Shown in pieces: positions 995 to 41,963 of a DNA stretch of 64,000 bases. The position numbers and the translations under genes are program-made. This DNA comes from Microvirga lupini (lineage in GTDB: Bacteria; Pseudomonadota; Alphaproteobacteria; Rhizobiales; Beijerinckiaceae), in NCBI RefSeq assembly GCF_014191055.1, contig NZ_JACHWB010000005.1, positions 62,001 through 126,000 of the forward strand, in the 5' to 3' direction. Below the pieces are notes generated by a model. That model had not been told where the DNA came from and made no database searches. It saw only the letters and a list, made by a program, of their open reading frames with translations. Within the stretch, counting starts at the first letter, position 1. Each line of letters opens with the position of its first letter.

Positions 995-2413
995 ATGAGC
1001 AAACTCGATCCCATCCACGTCATCGGCGGCGGCCTCGCCGGTTCCGAAGCAGCCTGGCAGATCGCCCAAGCCGGTGTGCCTGTCGTGCTTCACGAGATGC
1101 GCCCCGTCCGCGGCACCGACGCGCACAAGACGGAGGGCCTTGCCGAGCTCGTCTGCTCCAACTCCTTCCGCTCGGATGACGCCGAGACCAACGCGGTGGG
1201 CCTGCTGCATCAGGAGATGCGCAGCCTCGGCTCCCTTATCATGGCCAAGGGAGATGCCAATCAGGTGCCTGCCGGCGGCGCCTTGGCGGTTGATCGCGAC
1301 GGGTTTTCCCATGCCGTGACGGCGGCACTCGAGTCCCATCCCCTCATCACCATCGAGCGGGGCGAGATTGCAGGCTTGCCGCCGGAGGAATGGTCCTCGG
1401 TGATCATCGCCACCGGCCCCCTCACCTCGCCGCCCCTGGCGGAGGCCATTCTTGAGCTTACGGGCGAGACGTCGCTGGCCTTCTTCGACGCCATCGCGCC
1501 CATCGTGTACCGCGAGTCCATCAACATGGACGTCGCCTGGTTCCAGTCGCGCTATGACAAGGTCGGACCCGGGGGCACCGGCAAGGACTACATCAACTGC
1601 CCCATGACCCGGGAGCAGTACGATGCTTTCATCGATGCGCTGATCGCCGGCGACAAGACCGAGTTCAAGGAGTGGGAGGCCAACACCCCCTATTTCGACG
1701 GCTGCCTGCCTATCGAGGTCATGGCCGAGCGCGGCCGCGAGACCCTGCGCCATGGCCCGATGAAGCCGGTGGGCCTCACCGATCCGCGCAACCCCGACAA
1801 GAAGCCCTATGCCATCGTGCAGCTGCGCCAGGACAATGCGCTCGGCACCCTGTTCAACATGGTGGGCTTCCAGACCAAGCTGAAATACGGCGCCCAGACA
1901 GCGATCCTGCGCATGATCCCGGGCCTTGAGAACGCGGAGTTCGCCCGCCTCGGCGGCATTCACCGCAACACCTATCTCAACTCGCCGAAGCTCCTGGACC
2001 CGACGCTCCGCCTGAAGGCGATGCCGCGCCTTCGCTTCGCCGGCCAGATCACCGGCTGCGAGGGTTATGTGGAGAGCGCGGCCGTCGGCCTGATGACCGG
2101 CCGCTTCGCGGCTGCCGAGCGACTGGGCTGTCCGATCCAGCCGCTGCCCCACACCACGGCGCTCGGCGCCCTCATCAACCACATCACCGGCGGGCATATC
2201 GAGACCATCGACGAGGGGCCGCGCTCCTTCCAGCCGATGAACGTCAATTTCGGCCTCTTTCCGCCGCTGGCGCAGGCGCCCAAGTCCGAAGACGGCAAGC
2301 GCCTGCGCGGGCCGGCCAAGGCAGTTGCCAGGAAGAAGGCGCTCACGGATCGGGCAAGGGCTGATCTGGCTGCGTGGATGGCTGGTGGCGCACTGCCGGT
2401 GGCCGCAGAGTAA
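995..2413 (+). CDS. trmFO: TrmFO, folate/FAD-dependent tRNA U54 methyltransferase
   Basis: This enzyme makes 5-methyluridine at position 54 of tRNA, using methylenetetrahydrofolate as carbon donor and FADH2 as reductant. The 472-residue product begins [20 protein letters not shown], a Rossmann dinucleotide motif (GGGLAG) placed where the family has it. VCSNSFRS and [12 protein letters not shown] are further family-typical blocks, and the length fits. In-frame codons extend upstream to 824 (ATG at 956), but homology starts at the ATG at 995; no strong ribosome site is present at either. It is a single gene after a terminator and has no operon partner. Confidence 0.95.
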
Positions 2414-32829: not shown

Positions 32830-33267
32830 CTACCCGCAACACCGGCTCCCACGAGGCCCAGTCAGATCTTGCGTGATGGTGCATTGCGAGGCGGGGCCGC
32901 CTGCACAGGCTGCCGTGCAGTTATCGACGAACGCCTCCAGGCTGCTTTCGAGAGCGCGAAGCTCGATCAGTTTCCGCCGAACCTCGGCGAGATGCGCCTG
33001 GGCGAGATCGCGGGTCTCGTTGCAGTCGCGATCCGGATCCTGGGCCAGGGAGACGAGGGTTCGCACTTGCTCGACGGAGAATCCGAAATCGCGGCAGCGG
33101 CGAATGAACGTCAACTGCCGCAGGTCGTCTTCGGAATAAAAACGATGTCCTCCCGGCCGACGACGGGCTGGCGGCAGCAGGCCGATCTCCTCGTAGTACC
33201 GGATAGTCGGGACATTGCATCCCGTCTGCTCGGCCAAGGCACCGATGGTCAGAGCTCGTGAACACAT
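32830..33267 (-). CDS. MerR-family metal-responsive regulator
   Basis: The 145-residue protein has the winged-helix DNA-binding domain (LTIGALAEQTGCNVPTIRYY, then LLPPARRRPGGHRFY) and a long dimerisation helix. Its cysteines fall at 82 (RDCNETRDLA), 117, 121 and 129 (NCTAACAGGPASQC). Mercury-sensing MerR uses Cys82, Cys117 and Cys126, so the layout closely resembles MerR itself. The gene diverges from a MerF-like gene across a MerR-type operator (33293-33323), which it presumably controls. The metal sensed is inferred, not proven. Confidence 0.88.
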   Translation of the reverse strand: MCSRALTIGALAEQTGCNVPTIRYYEEIGLLPPARRRPGGHRFYSEDDLRQLTFIRRCRDFGFSVEQVRTLVSLAQDPDRDCNETRDLAQAHLAEVRRKLIELRALESSLEAFVDNCTAACAGGPASQCTITQDLTGPRGSRCCG

Positions 33268-33292: not shown

Positions 33293-33323
33293 TTGAACCT
33301 CAAGTTACTTGAGGTCGCATCCT
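33293..33323 (+). promoter_or_regulatory. MerR-type promoter and operator
   Basis: A perfect inverted repeat ACCTCAAG-TTA-CTTGAGGT (33297-33315) lies inside a promoter whose -35 (TTGAAC, 33293-33298) and -10 (CATCCT, 33318-33323) are separated by 19 bases. This over-long spacer filled by a dyad is the mark of promoters that MerR proteins activate by untwisting DNA. It drives the MerF-like gene and overlaps the upstream region of the regulator. Confidence 0.8.
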
Positions 33324-33729: not shown

Positions 33730-34053
33730 ATGACGACCATTCTTGCCTATTCGTTGGCCGCCCTGGCGGAGATTGCAGGCTGCTTTGCATTCTGGGCTTG
33801 GCTGCGCCTGGACAGATCCCTCCTGTGGCTCATCCCGGGAGGGCTCTCGCTGGCCCTGTTTGCGTATTTGTTGACCCTTGTTGAAGCCGGCGCCGCCGGC
33901 CGAGCCTACGCTGCCTATGGGGGCGTCTACATCGTCGCCTCGCTCCTTTGGCTGTGGACCGTCGAGGGAATACGCCCAGACCGGTGGGATCTCACGGGAG
34001 GTGCCATCTGCCTCATGGGAGCGGCCCTCATTCTGCTTGGACCGCGGGCCTAG
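33730..34053 (+). CDS. YnfA/UPF0060 family small membrane protein
   Basis: The 107-residue protein has four membrane helices and the YnfA signatures [18 protein letters not shown] and [20 protein letters not shown]. The family is related to small multidrug resistance transporters. The ATG at 33730 matches the length of E. coli YnfA. It is 106 bases after the MerF-like gene on the same strand and could be in the same metal-regulated unit. Confidence 0.92.
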
Positions 34054-34113
34054 AGCATCGAACGCAAAAGTGAACACCGGTTTTGCGTGAAAAGATGCGT
34101 CGAACCAAAAACT

Positions 34114-34155
34114 TAAAGCATCGGACGTGAATTCGAACTCACGTCCGATGCTTTA
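34114..34155. terminator. Strong hairpin after the ynfA gene
   Basis: A perfect 17-pair stem (TAAAGCATCGGACGTGA and its complement) closes an eight-base loop ATTCGAAC. It lies about 60 bases after the ynfA stop, preceded by a diverged family C-like sequence (34051-34110). There is no run of T residues, so a terminator role is only likely. Confidence 0.55.
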
Positions 34156-34231
34156 GAATTCGCGTCGTTTTCGCTCCTGAAAAGGCGGCAAAATCCTTGC
34201 GGAACAAAGGGTGAAACCCCATATTCTGCCT

Positions 34232-34612
34232 ATGGTTACCACCCTTGCGACATCCCTGTTGAGGCCGGCCCGGAACGCTCCTGTCGAGGAGCGGATCGAG
34301 GGCAATTGGCACGTCTATCCGCTGGAGGGCGCGCTGGAGCTCGACTATGTGGATCAGGCCGGCAATGCGACCCGGCGCTGGGTGCTGGCGCGCGAGCTGA
34401 AGGTGGGTCCGGGCAAGATGCTTCTGGGCGGAATCGACATCCTCACCGAGGACGGCTATCGCGGCTTCCGGGTCGACCGCATCCAGCGCCTGGAGGATGC
34501 CGAGACCGGCCTCGTGGTCGAGCACAACATTCTCGACTGGCTCATGAAGCTTGCCGAGCGGCAGGCCCGGGCACGCCGGAAACATCTCGCCCGCCTGCAG
34601 CCCGGCGCTTAG
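34232..34612 (+). CDS. Small WYL-like domain protein
   Basis: The 126-residue protein was not recognised as a named family. Its centre, LELDYVDQAGNATRRWVLAR followed by GGIDILTEDGYRGFRVDRIQ, has the strand pattern and the F-R-x-D-R-I ending of WYL ligand-sensing domains, but it lacks a DNA-binding domain. The ATG at 34232 was chosen; a GTG at 34211 next to AAAGG is also possible. It lies upstream of the peptide-export genes on the same strand, 111 bases away, and could be linked to them. Confidence 0.6.
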   Translation: MVTTLATSLLRPARNAPVEERIEGNWHVYPLEGALELDYVDQAGNATRRWVLARELKVGPGKMLLGGIDILTEDGYRGFRVDRIQRLEDAETGLVVEHNILDWLMKLAERQARARRKHLARLQPGA

Positions 34613-34723
34613 CCCTCGTCTGCGGCAGAACAGCCGAACCGGCCCTCTCGACTGTCCCGTCCCTTGTGTCACCCCGGCCTTTCTGCAACATAGTGTCATA
34701 ATAATGTTGCGTTGGGGGTTGGG

Positions 34724-35974
34724 GTGGCCCAGCAATCCTTGTTCCGGCCAAAGGCCGTGGTGGCGGCCACGGGCGAGCACTCGTCCGTGTCGCTGCCGGT
34801 TGCGCCCCTGTCCTGGCGGCTGCTCGGCGGCTTCATTCTCGCCTGTGTGGCCGTCGTGGTCTTCTTCCTCGGCACGGCCGAATATGCCCGCAAGGAAACG
34901 GCCGGCGGCTCTCTCGTGGCAGCGGGCGGCGCGGTGCGGGTCAGTGCGCTCCGCGGTGGCGTGGTGACGGAGCTTAAGGTGAAGGAAGGCGACCGGGTCA
35001 CTGCCGGCCAGCCGCTCTTCACGGTGGCCTCGCGCCAGGGACTCGAGGTCGGCGGCACCCTGGATGCGGCGGTCCTCGCCTCCCTCGATACGCAGATTCA
35101 GGTGCTGAAGGATCAGATCGCGGCCGATCCGGCCCGCATGGACAACGAGATCCGGCGTCTTGACTCCGCCATCGCCTCCGTGACGGCCGAGCGGGACGCC
35201 CTCGCGGCCCAGCGCACGCTCATGATCGAACGCATCCGGGTGACGGAGGAGCGCCGCCACACCATCGCGCGGCTGAACGAGCAGGGCCATACGACACGCG
35301 CCGCCCTGCAGGAGCAGGACGAGGTTCTGCTCGCCCGCCGGCAGAACATGGCCGAGATAGACCGGGAGCTCGCGGAGGCCGAGAAAAACTTGAGCCAGAC
35401 GCAGCTCCAGCGCGAGCAATTGCCGGTGCAGCAGGCCGAGCGACTGGCGGGCTTACGCCTCAACCTCGCCGACCGGGAACGGCAGCGGGCCGAGGTTCAG
35501 GCGCAAGGCGCGCAGGTGATCACCGCGCCTCTCGGCGGGCGCGTCACGGCCCTGCAGGCCGCGACGGGACAGATCGTCGATCCCAACAAGCCCTTGATGA
35601 CCCTCCTGCCCGATGGCGCCAGCCTGCGGGCGGAACTCTTTGTCCCGAGCCGGGCCATCGGCTTCGTCGAGCCCGGTCAGCGGGTGCGCCTGATGGTCGA
35701 TGCCTTTCCCTATCAGCGCTTCGGCACGCTGGGCGGCTCCGTCGAGACCGTGTCGCAGGCCGTTCTCTCGCCCAATGACGTGATCGGGAAAGTCAGCCTC
35801 TCCGAACCCGCCTATCGCGTCACCGTGCGCCTCGACCGGCAGGTCATCGACGCCTTCGGGCGCGAGGTGCCGCTGCAGCCGGACATGAGCCTCAAGGCCG
35901 ATATCGTGCTCGAGGGCCGCTCCCTCGTCGCCTGGCTGTTCGAGCCGCTCATCAGCGTCAGGGGACGGATGTGA
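34724..35974 (+). CDS. HlyD/CvaA-type membrane fusion protein for peptide export
   Basis: This adaptor links an inner-membrane ABC exporter to an outer-membrane channel. The 416-residue protein has one membrane helix (about 30-50), a lipoyl-like half-motif (VSALRGGVVTELKVKEGDRV), a long coiled coil (about 120-250) and the second half (VITAPLGGRVTALQAATGQI). Architecture and neighbour match CvaA of the colicin V exporter. GTG at 34724 is preferred, with GGGGG just upstream; TTG at 34712 is possible. The stop overlaps the transporter start by four bases. Confidence 0.88.
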   Translation: MAQQSLFRPKAVVAATGEHSSVSLPVAPLSWRLLGGFILACVAVVVFFLGTAEYARKETAGGSLVAAGGAVRVSALRGGVVTELKVKEGDRVTAGQPLFTVASRQGLEVGGTLDAAVLASLDTQIQVLKDQIAADPARMDNEIRRLDSAIASVTAERDALAAQRTLMIERIRVTEERRHTIARLNEQGHTTRAALQEQDEVLLARRQNMAEIDRELAEAEKNLSQTQLQREQLPVQQAERLAGLRLNLADRERQRAEVQAQGAQVITAPLGGRVTALQAATGQIVDPNKPLMTLLPDGASLRAELFVPSRAIGFVEPGQRVRLMVDAFPYQRFGTLGGSVETVSQAVLSPNDVIGKVSLSEPAYRVTVRLDRQVIDAFGREVPLQPDMSLKADIVLEGRSLVAWLFEPLISVRGRM

Positions 35975-38130
35975 AGCTTTTCGCTCGTCTCGATTATTTC
36001 GGCGCCCCTCGCCTGCCGGCGATCATGCAGTCGGAAGCGGCCGAATGCGGGCTTGCCTGCCTCGCCATGGTGGCGACCTATCACGGGCGCGACGTCGATC
36101 TCACGGCCCTGCGCCGCCTGTTTTCAATCTCGCTCAAAGGCGTCACGCTCAAGGACGTGCTCCTCATGGGCCAGCGCCTGGGCATGAGCGGCCGGGGCCT
36201 GCGGCTTGAGCCGGAGCAGCTGAGAGACATCAAGCTGCCCTGCATCCTGCATTGGGACATGAACCACTTCGTGGTGCTCAAAGAGGTCGGCGTCCGGAAG
36301 GTGACGATCCACGATCCGGCTGTGGGCGTGCGCACGCTGAGCCTCGACGAGGTCGGGCACCATTTCACCGGCATCGCCCTTGAGCTGACGCCGACGCAAT
36401 CCTTCGAGCGCAAGAAGGAAATCTCGCGGCTCGGCCTCTCGGCCCTCTGGGGTCGGATGCGCGGGATCAAGCGGGCGCTGGCTCAGGCGCTCGTTCTCTC
36501 CACCGTGCTGCAGTTCGCCGTGCTGGCGGCGCCCTTCTACATGCAGCTTGCCGTCGACGAGGCGGTGATGAAGGGCGACAGCGGCTTGCTGACGGCGCTC
36601 GCGCTCGGCTTCGGCCTGCTCATGCTGATCCATATCGGGGCCGATTGGCTGCGGTCGCACGTGCTGCTTTTCTTAAGCGGCGCGCTCAATTTCCAGATGG
36701 GGGCCAATCTCTTCCATCATCTCGTGCGCCTGCCGCTCGCCTGGTTCGAGAAGCGCCATATCGGCGACCTCGTCTCGCGCTTCCGCTCGGCGGAGCCGAT
36801 CCAGCGGCTGATCTCGGAAGGCCTCGTCGCTGCCCTCGTCGATGGGGTGATGGCAACGCTCACCCTCGCGATGATCCTGATCTACAGCCCCAAGCTGTCG
36901 GGCATCGTGTTCGCGGCGCTGGCCCTTTATGCGCTTCTGCGCTTCGCCCTCTACCGATCGCTGCGCCAGCGGCAGGAGGAGATGATCGAGGCGGCAGCCA
37001 AGGAGCAGACCACCTTCATCGAGACCGCACGCGCCATCCAGAGCATCAAGATCTTCGGGCGGGAATCCGACCGGGAGGCCGTGTGGCAGAACCGCTATGC
37101 CGCTTCGATCAGCCGCTCCATCCGCCAGGGCCGCTTCACTATCGGCTTCAAGACGGCGAACGACCTGATCTATGGCCTCGAGAACGTGCTCGTGGTCTGG
37201 CTCGGCGCCAAGGCCATCATGGCGAACGACATGACCATCGGCATGCTCTACGCGTTCATGGCCTACAAAGAGCAGTTCCTGTCCAAGGCCACCAACCTGA
37301 TCGAGACCGGCATCCAATACCGCATGCTCGACCTCCATCTCGATCGCCTCTCCGACATTGCCCTGACCGAGCGTGAGGGAGACCTGCACGGCGACAGCCT
37401 CGTGGCGCGGCCGGTTGCTGGAGCGGTGGAATTGAGGAACGTGAGCTTCCGCTATGCCGATACCGAGCCCGACGTGCTCTCGGGTGCGGATCTCAAGGTC
37501 GAGGCCGGCGAATTCGTGGCCATCACCGGGCCGTCCGGCGGCGGCAAGACCACGCTTCTCAAGATCATGCTCGGGCTGTTCAAGCCGCGCGACGGCGCGG
37601 TGCTCATCGATGGCACGCCCATCGCGCATTTCGGCATCCAGGGTTTCCGCCAGCAGATCGGCGTGGTGATGCAGGACGACCAGCTTCTGTCCGGATCCAT
37701 TGCGGAGAATATCTGCTTCTTCGATGCAAGGATCGATCTCGACTGGATGCGGGAATGTGCACGGATTGCGGGCGTCGACGACGAGATCATGGCCATGCCC
37801 ATGAACTACAACACGCTGATCGGCGACATGGGCACCACCCTGTCGGGCGGGCAGCGCCAGCGGGTGCTCCTCGCCCGCGCCCTCTACCGTCGCCCACGCA
37901 TGCTCTTCATGGACGAGGGCACGTCGAGCCTCGACCTCGACAAGGAGCGGGAGGTGAACCGGGCGCTGGCCGAGTTGAAGATTACCCGCATCGTCATCGC
38001 CCACCGGCCGGAGACGATCCGCGCCGCGGACCGGATCGTGGTGCTGCGCGAGGGCCGGGTCTCCCCGCCCATGGACGGCGACGCGCTCGCCTTCGCCGAG
38101 GCGGCCCGCCAGGGCCTCGGCCGGACCTGA
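35971..38130 (+). CDS. C39-peptidase ABC exporter (bacteriocin-type, PCAT)
   Basis: The 719-residue protein both trims and exports double-glycine peptides. The N-terminal C39 peptidase has its catalytic set intact: Gln20, Cys26 (QSEAAECGLAC), His99 (WDMNHFVVLKE) and Asp115 (IHDPAVG). Six membrane helices follow (about 160-430), then an ATPase with Walker A GPSGGGKTTLLK, signature LSGGQRQRVLLARAL and Walker B MLFMDEGTSSLD. The GTG start overlaps the fusion-protein stop (GTGA). The intact Cys separates it from HlyB-type RTX exporters, which lack it. A matching precursor peptide is encoded 73 bases downstream on the other strand. Confidence 0.93.
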   Translation: MKLFARLDYFGAPRLPAIMQSEAAECGLACLAMVATYHGRDVDLTALRRLFSISLKGVTLKDVLLMGQRLGMSGRGLRLEPEQLRDIKLPCILHWDMNHFVVLKEVGVRKVTIHDPAVGVRTLSLDEVGHHFTGIALELTPTQSFERKKEISRLGLSALWGRMRGIKRALAQALVLSTVLQFAVLAAPFYMQLAVDEAVMKGDSGLLTALALGFGLLMLIHIGADWLRSHVLLFLSGALNFQMGANLFHHLVRLPLAWFEKRHIGDLVSRFRSAEPIQRLISEGLVAALVDGVMATLTLAMILIYSPKLSGIVFAALALYALLRFALYRSLRQRQEEMIEAAAKEQTTFIETARAIQSIKIFGRESDREAVWQNRYAASISRSIRQGRFTIGFKTANDLIYGLENVLVVWLGAKAIMANDMTIGMLYAFMAYKEQFLSKATNLIETGIQYRMLDLHLDRLSDIALTEREGDLHGDSLVARPVAGAVELRNVSFRYADTEPDVLSGADLKVEAGEFVAITGPSGGGKTTLLKIMLGLFKPRDGAVLIDGTPIAHFGIQGFRQQIGVVMQDDQLLSGSIAENICFFDARIDLDWMRECARIAGVDDEIMAMPMNYNTLIGDMGTTLSGGQRQRVLLARALYRRPRMLFMDEGTSSLDLDKEREVNRALAELKITRIVIAHRPETIRAADRIVVLREGRVSPPMDGDALAFAEAARQGLGRT

Positions 38131-38139
38131 CGTAGAAAA

Positions 38140-38163
38140 GGGCGCGACCGTGTGATCGCGCCC
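38140..38163 (-). terminator. Terminator between the exporter and the peptide gene
   Basis: A perfect eight-pair stem GGGCGCGA / TCGCGCCC with an eight-base loop. On the minus strand it is followed by TTTTC, making it a good terminator for the peptide precursor gene. It also lies ten bases past the exporter stop and may work both ways. Confidence 0.75.
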
Positions 38164-38202
38164 TCTTGCCTGACAGTCCGGGCGTGTGAGCGCCCGACGC
38201 GA

Positions 38203-38325
38203 TCAGCAATCGGTTTGATAGACGATGATCCGGCGACCGCCCGCGACGCCGGCGAGTTCCTTCTCGCTCAGCTCGACGACGGCCTTGATGGCCTTCTTAT
38301 CCGTCTTGGTCTGCGTCTTCTTCAT
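38203..38325 (-). CDS. Double-glycine leader peptide precursor (40 aa)
   Basis: The 40-residue product has a 30-residue leader (MKKTQTKTDKKAIKAVVELS and on) with the pattern LSEKELAGVAGG. That is the hydrophobic-heptad, Gly-Gly signature cut by C39 peptidases. The predicted mature peptide is RRIIVYQTDC: ten residues, strongly basic at the start, one cysteine at the very end. The ATG at 38325 has GGGGGAGG five bases upstream. The gene faces the exporter gene and shares a terminator with it. No immunity or modification gene was recognised. It could be a microcin-like bacteriocin or a signal peptide. Confidence 0.82.
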   Translation of the reverse strand: MKKTQTKTDKKAIKAVVELSEKELAGVAGGRRIIVYQTDC

Positions 38326-38391
38326 GAAGACCTCCCCCACCGTTGAGGTGTTGTTAGGCACCAAACCCTGGCTCAGCGGCCAGTGATACAA

Positions 38392-38420
38392 AGTAACAAA
38401 GCTCCGGCTACGTAAGTCAA
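38392..38420 (-). promoter_or_regulatory. Candidate promoter of the peptide precursor gene
   Basis: Read on the minus strand, TTGACT (38415-38420) and GTTACT (38392-38397) are 17 bases apart, and the region around them is AT-rich compared with its surroundings. Transcription would start about 60 bases before the precursor ATG. Confidence 0.45.
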
Positions 38421-38509
38421 TCGGTAATGTTTTACCTTATCTTAGGGCCGTTGGCGGATATCCTGACAGCGGACTCGCGGGCTTTTTCCCAATGGGTTAT
38501 GAACGCTTC

Positions 38510-39670
38510 ATGGACCTGATCACCTCCACCGACGCCCTGGCCGCCGCCTGCGACCGCCTCAGCCAGCACCCGTTCGTCACCGTCGACACGGAATTCCTGC
38601 GCGAGACCACCTATTACCCGAAGCTCTGCCTGATCCAGATGGCGGGTCCTGATCCGGCCGATGCCGTGCTGATCGACCCGCTCGCCGAGGGCATGAGCCT
38701 CGAGCCGTTCATGGCCCTCATGGCGAACCGGAATGTCGTGAAGGTCTTCCATTCCGCCCGGCAGGACCTGGAGATCGTCTGGAATCTCGGGGGCATCGTG
38801 CCCGAGCCCCTGTTCGACACCCAGGTTGCCGCCATGGTCTGCGGCTACGGGGACTCGGTGTCCTACGAGCAGCTGACCAACGATCTCGCCAAGGCGAAGA
38901 TCGACAAGTCCTCCCGCTTCACCGACTGGTCGCGCCGCCCCTTGAGCGACGCCCAGCTCACCTATGCCCTGTCCGACGTTACCCATCTGGTGAAGGTCTA
39001 CGAGGCGCTGGTCAGCCAGCTGCAGGCGAACGGCCGGCTCGAATGGCTCGGCGAGGAGATGGCGATCCTCACCTCGCCCGAGACCTATCAGGCTGATCCC
39101 GACAATGCCTGGCGCCGCCTCGCCGGCCGCCTGCGCAAGCAGCGGGAGATCGCCGTGCTCATGGAGGTTGCCTCCTGGCGCGAGCGCGAGGCGCAGAACC
39201 GCGACGTGCCACGCGGGCGCATCCTCAAGGATGACGCCGTCATCGACATCGCCACCTCGGCGCCGCGCAGCGTGGAGGCGCTTGGACGCCTGCGCACGAT
39301 TCCCAACGGGTTCGAGCGCTCCCGCACCGGCGGCGAAATTCTGGAGGCCGTGGAGCGGGCGCTCGCCCGCGATCCCGCCACGATCCCGATGCCGGAGCGC
39401 AGTCGCGGCCGCAGCAACACCGGTTCCGTGGTCGACCTGCTGAAGGTCCTGCTGAAAGCGGTGGCCGAGCAGGAGGGCGTCGCGCCGAAGATCATCGCCA
39501 CGGTCGAAGAGCTGGAAGCCATCGCCGACAGCGACAATGCCGACGTCCCCTCCCTCCACGGCTGGCGCCGCAAGCTTTTCGGCGAGAAAGCCCTGGCGCT
39601 CAAGAACGGCCAGCTCGGGCTGGTGCTGGAGCGCGGACGGGTGAAGCTCAGGGAGATTGGAGCCGCTTGA
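38510..39670 (+). CDS. rnd: Ribonuclease D
   Basis: RNase D is a 3'-5' exonuclease acting on tRNA precursors and other structured RNA. The 386-residue protein has the DEDD exonuclease motifs in order: [10 protein letters not shown] (ExoI), [14 protein letters not shown] (ExoII) and [17 protein letters not shown] (ExoIII, DEDDy type). An HRDC domain follows (about 205-290). [10 protein letters not shown] at 38510 is the family-like start; an ATG at 38492 adds six residues. Many relatives have rnd beside aspS, as I recall; here an accessory block separates them. Confidence 0.93.
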
Positions 39671-39803: not shown

Positions 39804-41963
39804 TCAGATCACGAAGATATCGAGATGGGAGAGGGCCAGGCCCTTTTTGACCTGGGCGAACTCGATCGCCTTGCCTTTGCCCGATCCGTCGGCATCGTAG
39901 GACAGCACACCGGTCTTCTTGTTGTAGACGACGTAGTCGTTCTTATCGCTGGCCTTGGTGCCGGTGGCGAAGAAGTCCTTCTTCAGCGTGCCGGTCTTCT
40001 TCAGCTTCGTGAAGATCTTGTTCTCCAGCCGGATCGTGTCGTCCTTCGCCGAGAAATCGGCAATGGTGTCGAAATTGACCTTCCGATCAGTCGTAGAGGT
40101 CCCAAGCTTCGTGTCGAACACGAAGCTGTCCTTGCCCTTGCTGCCCGAGAGCAGATCGTTGCCGGAGCCGCCATGGAGCTTGTCGTCGCCCGACCCGCCA
40201 TAAAGCTTGTCGTTGCCGTCCAGCCCCTTGAGGGTGTCCTTGCCCACATTGCCCTTCAGGGTGTTGGCGGCGCTGGAACCGGTGAGGCTGTAGGACTTCC
40301 GGCTCGAGACGTTGGCGAACAGAACCTCCTCCACCTCCGCGCCGACATCGAGCTGATAGCTGGTGCCGGTCACGACGACCTTGTCATAGCCGCCGCCTGC
40401 GGTCTCAACCACCTGATCGCGTCCGATGACATGATAAGTGTCATTGCCGCCGGAGCCCTGCAGCACCGCCGAGCCGTTGCCGTAAAAGGTGTCATTGTGG
40501 CGCGAGCCGATCAGGCGCTCGATGGATGAGTACACGTCGCCTGCCGCATCGCCGCCCGTGCCACCCTGCATGCTAGCCACAACTCCCGACGCGGCATGAG
40601 CGAAAGTGACCGTGTCGAAGCCATCGCCGCCTGCGATGCCATCCGCCCCGCCCCCGCCTTCGATCAGGTCGTTTCCTCCACCGGCATCGAAGACATCGCC
40701 AAAACCTGTCCCGATCCAGTCATTGCTGAGCGCCAGCTTTTGTGCAGTGAGCGTCCTGGACGAGAGCTCAATGCCCGCCTCGCGCGGATCGATGATCTTC
40801 ACACGGATCGTCGGCTCGCCGTCATGCCACCAGCTGACCGCCACGCGGCCATCCTCCAGGGTCGTGATGCTCGGCATCCTGCCATTGTTCCATCCGTCAG
40901 GAGCGTGGATGGTGATGGCGCTACCGTCCGCCGTCCCGTCTGCTTTGTAAGCCTGGCTCTTCACCTTGTACCCAGGCGCACCGTTGTCGAGCTGGCCGAA
41001 ATCGGCCCAGGTGACCATAAAGCGACCGTCCTTGAGAGCGGTCACCACCGGGTCAATTTCCACACCGGCCGGAGGGGTGATCTCGAAGGCAGTTGTCCGC
41101 TGCGAACCGTCGCTGTTGAACACACGAGCCCAGATGCCGTACTCATGGACAGGTGTGCTTCCTTCATCCAGTTTCCACGTTACGACGAAACCGCCATCCT
41201 CCAGTTTCGCGATCTGCGGATCGATCTGAACGGTATTCTCGCTGTCTGGGCGTATGTCGCCTATGATGAGATCGACGATCTTGCTTCCATCGGCGTCGAT
41301 GATCCGCCCAGCTAACTTCACGGCATTGGTAACCGTCCCCTCGGTCCAGAGGATCACGGAGGATCCGTCATCCAAACCCTGAATAACGGGCTTTGCTGTC
41401 TGATAGGCCTGGGTCTGCCCGAGAGACGCTACCGGGCCAACACGGACACCATTGCTGTCGTAACGTGCAAGCCACATCTCGACGTAATCTTCATTCTCCG
41501 GAGGCTGATGGTCCCGCCATGTAATAGCGAACCCGCCATCGCTGAGTGTCGTGATCCCCGGCTGAACCAAAGCATGGGCTGACGGAATGCTGATCCCATC
41601 GTTGACCTGGAACTCAGTGCCTATCTTATTGCCATCGACGCTGAAGAGCTGCCCCCAGATATCGGCATTCTCGCTGTTGTCCAAATAGGCTCTTTGATCC
41701 GTCCAGACGGCCACGAACCGGCCGTCGGCCAGAGCTGTGATGTTCGGGAATTGCTGCTCACCTACCGAAGTTGTGTTGAGGGTGAACTGGCTGCCTCGGA
41801 GCGAGCCGTCTGCGTTTAGGATCTGCGCACGGACTTCCTGCGCGTCGTTATCGACCCAGGCCACCACGAAACGGCCGTCGGCCAAAGCCGTGATGTGCGG
41901 TTCATCGTTATCTCCGAGGCCGTTTACGTAGATGTCCGCGCCCCAGAATGCAGAAGTTCCCAT
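39804..41963 (-). CDS. Large RTX-repeat secreted protein (719 aa)
   Basis: The N-terminal 400 residues are about seven degenerate repeats of some 55-60 residues. Each has a core like PHITALADGRFVVAWVD and a partner like VRAQILNADGSLRGSQF, suggesting a beta-propeller. RTX nonapeptides follow (LIEGGGGADGIAGGDG; GNDKLYGGSGDDKLHGGSGN), then a type I secretion tail ending LALSHLDIFVI. The tail shares the YDADG-x2-KGKAIEFAQ block with the small RTX protein at 267. There is no signal peptide and no protease motif. AGGG lies about nine bases before the ATG. A function in adhesion or surface coating is possible but unproven. Confidence 0.85.
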   Translation of the reverse strand: MGTSAFWGADIYVNGLGDNDEPHITALADGRFVVAWVDNDAQEVRAQILNADGSLRGSQFTLNTTSVGEQQFPNITALADGRFVAVWTDQRAYLDNSENADIWGQLFSVDGNKIGTEFQVNDGISIPSAHALVQPGITTLSDGGFAITWRDHQPPENEDYVEMWLARYDSNGVRVGPVASLGQTQAYQTAKPVIQGLDDGSSVILWTEGTVTNAVKLAGRIIDADGSKIVDLIIGDIRPDSENTVQIDPQIAKLEDGGFVVTWKLDEGSTPVHEYGIWARVFNSDGSQRTTAFEITPPAGVEIDPVVTALKDGRFMVTWADFGQLDNGAPGYKVKSQAYKADGTADGSAITIHAPDGWNNGRMPSITTLEDGRVAVSWWHDGEPTIRVKIIDPREAGIELSSRTLTAQKLALSNDWIGTGFGDVFDAGGGNDLIEGGGGADGIAGGDGFDTVTFAHAASGVVASMQGGTGGDAAGDVYSSIERLIGSRHNDTFYGNGSAVLQGSGGNDTYHVIGRDQVVETAGGGYDKVVVTGTSYQLDVGAEVEEVLFANVSSRKSYSLTGSSAANTLKGNVGKDTLKGLDGNDKLYGGSGDDKLHGGSGNDLLSGSKGKDSFVFDTKLGTSTTDRKVNFDTIADFSAKDDTIRLENKIFTKLKKTGTLKKDFFATGTKASDKNDYVVYNKKTGVLSYDADGSGKGKAIEFAQVKKGLALSHLDIFVI

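Follow-up and report, generated by a model that had tools for sequence, protein, structure and literature searches.

Several described systems pair a precursor carrying a double-glycine (GG) leader with an ATP-binding cassette (ABC) exporter that bears a C39 peptidase, and we compare with them here a small cassette found in Microvirga lupini. The cassette lies in a stretch of 64,000 nucleotides (contig NZ_JACHWB010000005.1, positions 62,001 to 126,000 of the forward strand), hereafter the window, to which all coordinates refer. In class II microcins such as colicin V, a GG leader, a C39 ABC exporter and an HlyD adaptor go together with an unlinked TolC-type channel. RaxX of Xanthomonas, made from a Gram-negative GG precursor, is cut and exported by a C39 transporter (RaxAB), again with an unlinked outer-membrane partner; it has a short conserved active region and acts on a plant receptor, a precedent for a peptide of this kind that does not kill (PMC8872720; this and the papers below are cited from excerpts). 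Also from Gram-negative bacteria are EbfG1-4/PteB of Synechococcus and Nap of Neisseria, with roles in biofilm or autolysis rather than in killing rivals (PMC4997328, PMC11798529). The streptococcal CSP, BIP/BlpC, BriC and rtg peptides are small, carry GG leaders and are exported by C39 transporters, several of them for communication (PMC7018657, PMC7595303). For HetC of Nostoc, another C39 exporter, the substrate is still being sought (PMC10986499).

The M. lupini locus shares features with these systems, and after comparison we file it as a variant of the C39-exported GG peptides. It differs from class II microcins in a product of 6 to 10 residues, in the lack of a visible immunity gene and in a core that is conserved between species. 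It differs from RaxX/RaxAB in having no tyrosylprotein sulfotransferase among the eight locus proteins scanned, an unrelated core and no known host receptor. The EbfG and Nap products are longer (36, 16 and 31 amino acids for the mature Naps) and unrelated in sequence, and Nap has a candidate immunity gene, while the streptococcal peptides are Gram-positive and often have known regulators; no receptor was found at the Microvirga locus. The core of the Microvirga peptide, RRIIVY, is also common to multi-repeat proteins of Caulobacter and Paraflavitalea and to a Cohnella protein (L119), where it is often followed by a [QST]TTS tail; unlike the Microvirga precursor, the multi-repeat proteins have no GG leader. 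A search of open-licence papers returned no RRIIVY string and nothing on this system in connection with Microvirga, bacteriocin or double-glycine subjects.

Our preferred reading, held tentatively, is of a minimal cassette for C39 peptide export, whose peptide would be linear, conserved between species and signal-like, in Alphaproteobacteria. The cassette comprises the following parts.

34712..35974, plus strand: HlyD-type periplasmic adaptor (membrane fusion protein), 420 amino acids counted from TTG 34712
35971..38130, plus strand: C39 peptidase-containing ABC exporter (C39 domain, transmembrane domain, nucleotide-binding domain), 719 amino acids, GTG start
38203..38325, minus strand: double-glycine precursor gene, 40 amino acids plus stop, facing the exporter
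38236..38325, minus strand: leader MKKTQTKTDKKAIKAVVELSEKELAGVAGG, ending in Gly-Gly
38218..38235, minus strand: hexapeptide core RRIIVY (CGC CGG ATC ATC GTC TAT), conserved
38206..38217, minus strand: tail QTDC, variable and apparently dispensable

The adaptor may start at TTG 34712 or at GTG 34724, and its stop shares the bases GTGA with the start of the exporter. Pfam recognizes HlyD_3 in the adaptor (1.5e-24) and Peptidase_C39 (3e-35), ABC_membrane (2e-36) and ABC_tran (6e-30) in the exporter, whose catalytic-site residues Gln20, Cys26, His99 and Asp115 are all in place. The frames, domains and residues thus confirm the original prediction, made from the letters of this DNA, of an adaptor and a C39 exporter with a complete active site overlapping by four bases. 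TIGR01843 scored 158.3 bits on the adaptor, under its cut-off of 208.65, and the exporter is not an NHLP bacteriocin export ABC1 protein (TIGR03796, 527.8 bits against a curated cut-off of 853.3). By sequence, the top-scoring solved chain for the exporter was the bacteriocin transporter 4ry2 (350 bits). The M. lupini genome yielded one C39 domain, the one at this locus, and one TolC/OEP-family protein, on a different contig; the class II microcin export set of peptidase-containing transporter, membrane fusion protein and TolC is complete in the genome, with TolC unlinked.

The precursor translates as MKKTQTKTDKKAIKAVVELSEKELAGVAGG followed by RRIIVYQTDC. GG leaders are described as having hydrophobic residues at -4, -7, -12 and -15 and GG at -2/-1 (PMC7018657), and the window's leader has V-4, L-7, L-12, V-15 and the two glycines; TIGR01847 reached 14.4 bits on it, under the cut-off of 15.7, which counts against the assignment. 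The facing 40-codon GG frame that had been predicted is confirmed by 16 such precursors beside C39 in 15 of 48 genus genomes, with synonymous codon changes among them.

This genus sample of 48 genomes includes M. lupini itself, and 26 of them bear a C39 exporter at least 67% identical to that of the window, two of these in pieces. A precursor search matched 20 of the 48 at E up to 10, and reading of the matched loci and their wider neighborhoods left the 16 precursors. The leader frame had been expected to stay beside the exporter in relatives. It does so with close exporters: of the 16 genomes with an exporter identity of 87% or more, 15 have an RRIIVY-type precursor. With distant exporters, at 67 to 83%, it does not (0 of 10). 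In a family-level sample, 45 of 397 genomes matched at E up to 0.1. The best match outside the genus, in G330 (E 1.6e-4), is a GG frame whose core differs; G209 also matched (E 0.001). The G209 match (L101), in another genus of the family, is a 42-residue frame (1416-1542, plus strand) ending SAGGRRIIVYQ, antisense to a long frame and probably spurious. G044 (L100) has a GG precursor, also unlinked to the exporter, in which the core is repeated, GG|APIIVYAAPITFDLRETYAMPVVRARPIVLDLRDPTVVRAAPIVIDIRPRKRKGGR.

Six of the ten genomes with more distant exporters have a mini-precursor of their own. A search seeded with three small GG precursors from such genomes gave six strong matches, in G022 (L078), G008 (L103), G004 (L074), G025 (L141), G015 (L142) and G041 (L143), and twelve weaker ones (E 5e-4 to 0.008): ten RRIIVY precursors, a further GG frame in G026 and a 216-residue frame in G038. 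All six strong matches carry the core R[KQ]VNEYEGQH, and their mean pairwise identity is 0.97 over the ten core residues and 0.55 over the last 14 residues of the leader. All six fall in the 67 to 83% exporter group of ten genomes, none of which has RRIIVY. Either mini-precursor is thus found in 21 of the 26 exporter-bearing genomes, never both together, and in none of the 22 without the exporter; with kinship ignored, Fisher p is about 2e-6 for the RRIIVY type by exporter group and about 3e-9 for either precursor against the exporter. It is as if the exporter had changed its message between the two sets of genomes. Two of the second-core precursors are on another contig than the exporter, and two are 16 to 18 kb away. 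At L059 (G039), L067 (G011), L068 (G031), L075 (G003), L078 (G022) and L079 (G017), some 4 kb ahead of the C39 frame's end and beyond hlyD, there are also GG precursors of a larger, bacteriocin-like kind, so the mini-peptides need not be the sole cargo.

How much of the peptide is conserved was judged on a wider set. A protein search with the precursor alignment, in which the 7,988 candidates with the most words in common were scored, gave 84 proteins at E up to 1. We took 54 of them as the family (P0001-P0054, the window's included) and excluded 30, P0055-P0058 as repeat proteins and P0059-P0084 as other GG precursors with E above 0.01. Over the 54, the core positions hold R in 53, R in 54, I/V/L in 53, I in 51, V/L in 51 and Y in 48, part of which is a selection effect since the profile contained the core; tails and spacers were free to vary. 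The core stays intact in ten proteins where a spacer (VKRD, KCD, AKKD or KKD) separates it from GG; a single extra G after GG (15 proteins) is the third G of a GGG leader and was not counted as a spacer. Nothing follows the core in 16 of the 54, a lone Q in eight and a lone S in five. Among the 16 genus precursors, uncorrected pairwise pN/pS (nonsynonymous over synonymous differences) comes to 0.17 in the core, to 0.26 in the ELS..GG part of the leader and to 1.7 over the two codons that open the tail (n = 9). The genus tails read QTDC, QCR, SDR, QTTSCI, QTTF, STTS or SGC, and seven of the 16 precursors have none, six of these genomes ending in RR[IV]ILY. In G026 a TAA directly follows the Tyr codon and the former tail codons can still be read; this loss may be decay, since the exporter of G026 also has a stop.

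Because 16 of the 54 family proteins end at the core, the minimal product would be a hexapeptide, and these comparisons strongly suggest that the conserved product is RR[IV]I[VL]Y rather than a decapeptide, with a dispensable tail. Of the mature decapeptide first proposed, then, the very short and basic character stands, and the conserved part is shorter. The same proposal saw in the terminal Cys a site for dimerization, thioether or metal chemistry. We reject this, as the tail varies and is often absent, and the Cys of the window's tail looks incidental.

We imagine the following sequence of events. The genes of the GG precursor and its exporter stand tail-to-tail, an arrangement seen in the window and conserved in relatives. 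From its intact C39 site, and from the consensus that the leader follows, the exporter would be expected to cleave after Gly-Gly, and by established C39 biology RRIIVYQTDC would be released via the exporter, the HlyD adaptor and the unlinked TolC-type channel. The hexapeptide would then be the working part. Least certain is the last step, in which the peptide may act on producer and kin alike as a social peptide or conserved signal, not a toxin, with a receptor encoded elsewhere than at the locus. We favor a signal over a toxin because the core is near-invariant between species, because a second near-invariant mini-core accompanies orthologous exporters and because no immunity gene is seen; a signaling role had likewise been preferred to that of a classic pore former in the original prediction.

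Expression of the precursor may depend on signals upstream of it.

38331..38338, minus strand: Shine-Dalgarno GGGGGAGG, then TCTTC before the precursor start
38368..38383, minus strand: inverted repeat CTGGCCGCTGAGCCAG in the precursor 5' region, a candidate operator or 5' hairpin
38393..38398, minus strand: candidate -10, TGTTAC in the window, exact register uncertain
38415..38420, minus strand: candidate -35, TTGACT

TTGAC[TA] precedes 15 of the 16 precursors, 14 of which have a GTTA-type -10 region as well; the second precursor of G007 is without TTGAC[TA] and was excluded from the upstream alignment. The inverted repeat CTGGCC...GGCCAG keeps four to six of six Watson-Crick pairs in each of 15 precursors, a count that has no shuffled control, and in G039 both arms are altered together. 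A simple sigma-70 scan found no promoter for the precursor, RNAalifold on the whole 5' untranslated region gave a weak consensus fold only and Rfam had no match there. A structured 5' untranslated region was therefore dropped, the short inverted repeat alone being retained, and promoter and operator stay candidates. That the precursor has a promoter of its own, as once claimed, is plausible from the recurring TTGAC[TA] and finds no backing in the scan. In the gap between C39 and rnd, G045 (L066), G033 (L069) and G015 (L072) have a GATACGVAACAACRATRC stretch like the precursor's -10 region, perhaps a remnant of a lost precursor. A further element, TTTTACCTTATC (38430-38441, upstream of rnd), recurs identically or as a one-base variant in five of nine inspected C39-rnd gaps that lack a precursor, and so probably serves rnd.

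The cassette is flanked by two genes that are not part of the system.

34211..34612, plus strand: flanking gene of 133 amino acids (open reading frame [ORF] 34211), left edge of the insertion site
38492..39670, plus strand: rnd (RNase D), right edge of the insertion site

In all 26 exporter-bearing genomes rnd is downstream of C39, and in 22 of them ORF 34211 is upstream of HlyD; G022 has it between C39 and rnd, and G003, G004 and G008 are wholly without it. Five of the 22 exporter-less genomes were opened, and in all five ORF 34211 and rnd adjoin, with 64 to 468 bases between them; among these, G013 bears an exporter of 49% identity at another place. Since the two genes are neighbors without the exporter, the cassette occupies a site beside resident genes. 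ORF 34211 is present in 42 of the 48 genus genomes, and 19 of the 42 lack this exporter; because it is so widespread, exporter-less genomes included, we ruled it out as an immunity gene. For the small membrane-type frames at 33309 and 33694, the neighborhoods of relatives offered no match. An immunity protein beside the precursor was recognizable neither at the locus nor among the neighbors kept in relatives, just as the original prediction had noted; one that is very small or unlinked may still exist. At 34043-34175 (plus strand) there is a sub-threshold Rfam match to the Brucella small RNA CI27 (RF02600; 32.3 bits against a gathering threshold of 59.8, E 3.8e-4). Just past rnd, at 39804-41963 on the minus strand, lies a 719-residue RTX-type protein ending LDIFVI; its one relative above 70% identity is in G039 (72%), other relatives giving partial matches at 34 to 49%, and we do not favor it as cargo of the exporter.

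The core recurs outside the genus family in 13 repeat proteins of 65 to 135 residues (P0055-P0058, P0085-P0093), all found with profiles that contained the motif. Twelve of the 13 carry RR[IVL][IV][VL]Y in two to four copies, joined by small-residue or acidic linkers; five end exactly in the motif, and five (three protein types by eye) contain ADRRIIVY[ST]TTSL. Named carriers are Caulobacter sp. 17J80-11, a Paraflavitalea, which we take to be Bacteroidota, and Cohnella luojiensis, whose protein has a single copy and, by eye, a membrane anchor. From average residue frequencies, ignoring compositional bias and shared descent of the carriers, the searched database should hold by chance about 25,000 copies of RRIIVY, about 0.25 of [DG]RR[IL]IVY[QST]TTS and about 0.0002 of ADRRIIVY[ST]TTSL. 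RRIIVY alone means nothing in database searches. In Microvirga-type proteins, QTT or STT begins five of the 25 tails longer than one residue and [QST]TTS is exact in three of the 54 family proteins; the window's QTDC resembles QTDS of P0091. Some of the repeat proteins seem, by eye, to be Sec-exported or membrane-anchored, and others show no signal. None of eight scanned repeat-type proteins was above a Pfam or NCBIfam cut-off, P0088 matched no solved structure and, by eye and from protein starts, no exporter or modification gene appeared in the contexts of L115 and L119. The leaderless P0055-P0058 and P0087-P0089 close with [DG]W and then hydrophobic residues (DGWIL, SGWLV, DDWMF), ends that presumably resemble C-terminal type I secretion signals.

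One can envision RRIIVY[QST]TTS as a peptide "word" of unrelated bacteria, the sole core of a C39-exported mini-peptide in Microvirga and a repeat on small proteins of Caulobacter, Bacteroidota and Bacillota, which a widely shared partner, be it a receptor or a surface target, would read and which Microvirga would have trimmed to six residues. We consider this doubtful and speculative; what speaks for it are the repeats and the long stretch in common. A pattern scan of contigs gave 32 matches, five of them retained by the filter, and single-copy matches were not taken as evidence because their number is about what chance predicts by a hand estimate. The proteins at the myxobacterial L116, L117 and L118 have two [EDQ]RR[IL]IVY[QS]T[TP][ST]L stretches each. 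These stretches lie in a larger protein, which we take, by eye, to resemble a TolB-type propeller lipoprotein, and as possible coincidences were not used as evidence. Repeat proteins are not common alphaproteobacterial genes in our samples, with 0 of 337 class genomes (an empty result without a known positive) and 1 of 397 family genomes, the G039 precursor itself. A mobile-element origin was also set aside, P0001 and P0088 being unmatched in plasmids and P0058 in phages.

Several observations weigh against a conserved signal. G045 has an 87% identical exporter and no precursor, and the exporter is interrupted or split in three of the 15 precursor genomes (one TAA in G026, two pieces in G024, two contigs and one TAA in G005). 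The second precursor of G007, with RRIIMH and a Cys-rich tail, departs from the core rule. Among the proteins scanned or compared there was no receptor, kinase or regulator at the locus that is kept in relatives (unlinked receptors were not searched for), and a frame at 32830, which looks MerR-like by eye, is unmatched next to the exporters of relatives. To our knowledge, a hexapeptide would be an exceptionally small cargo for a C39 exporter. The difference between the two mini-cores may be no more than a mark of two clades of exporter. Finally, the conservation of the core would also fit an antimicrobial with a conserved target. Such a product, a very small class II microcin-like peptide whose cationic RRIIVY binds a target on close relatives, the producer being tolerant through its target or through efflux, is in our view unlikely. 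It would be cationic as expected, its variable tails and the larger bacteriocin-like precursors next to some related exporters would suit it, and the GG leader, C39 exporter, HlyD adaptor and unlinked TolC fit the microcin export set (PMC9746304). No immunity gene is seen at the locus, however, the core is near-invariant between species instead of diversified, and 6 to 12 residues is far under the verified class II microcins, whose precursors have 75 to 120 amino acids in the same excerpt. We find it very improbable that the residues after GG serve exporter recognition or translation only, the peptide being functionless and the locus in decay. The interrupted exporters, the tail of G026 lost through an in-frame TAA and the -10-like stretches that are all G045, G033 and G015 retain would agree with decay, but the core is under tighter constraint than the leader and intact where spacers shift it from GG, and the precursors that accompany related exporters have quite other residues following GG.

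The other two explanations give the peptide work outside the cell. IIVY could form a zipper-prone beta-strand, so that the peptide or the repeat proteins would build extracellular fibers or surface coats. Amyloid-type peptides of the Fap system are also stated to be handled by C39 peptidases (excerpt of PMC11798529), and the repeated, linker-joined cores outside the genus family would suit assembly. The Microvirga product is nevertheless single-copy and as short as six residues, its two N-terminal Arg would repel and no assembly partner is linked, and we regard self-assembly as quite unlikely. Microvirga includes root-associated species, and the Tyr is kept in 48 of the 54 cores, as might be expected of a host- or community-directed peptide acting, like RaxX, on a plant receptor. 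The export anatomy, with its unlinked outer-membrane partner, is the same (PMC8872720). Against this, the scanned locus proteins include no sulfotransferase and RRIIVY is basic around its Tyr, and we hold a RaxX-like role to be quite improbable.

If the hexapeptide is indeed secreted and read by kin, as the signal reading would have it, it would, from general knowledge, be among the smallest C39 cargoes, and Microvirga would offer a case of double-glycine peptide signaling in Alphaproteobacteria. With the motif repeated in proteins of other bacteria, the idea of a common partner can be put to the test. Within the genus, the two near-invariant mini-cores with orthologous exporters are a ready comparison for how such a message changes.

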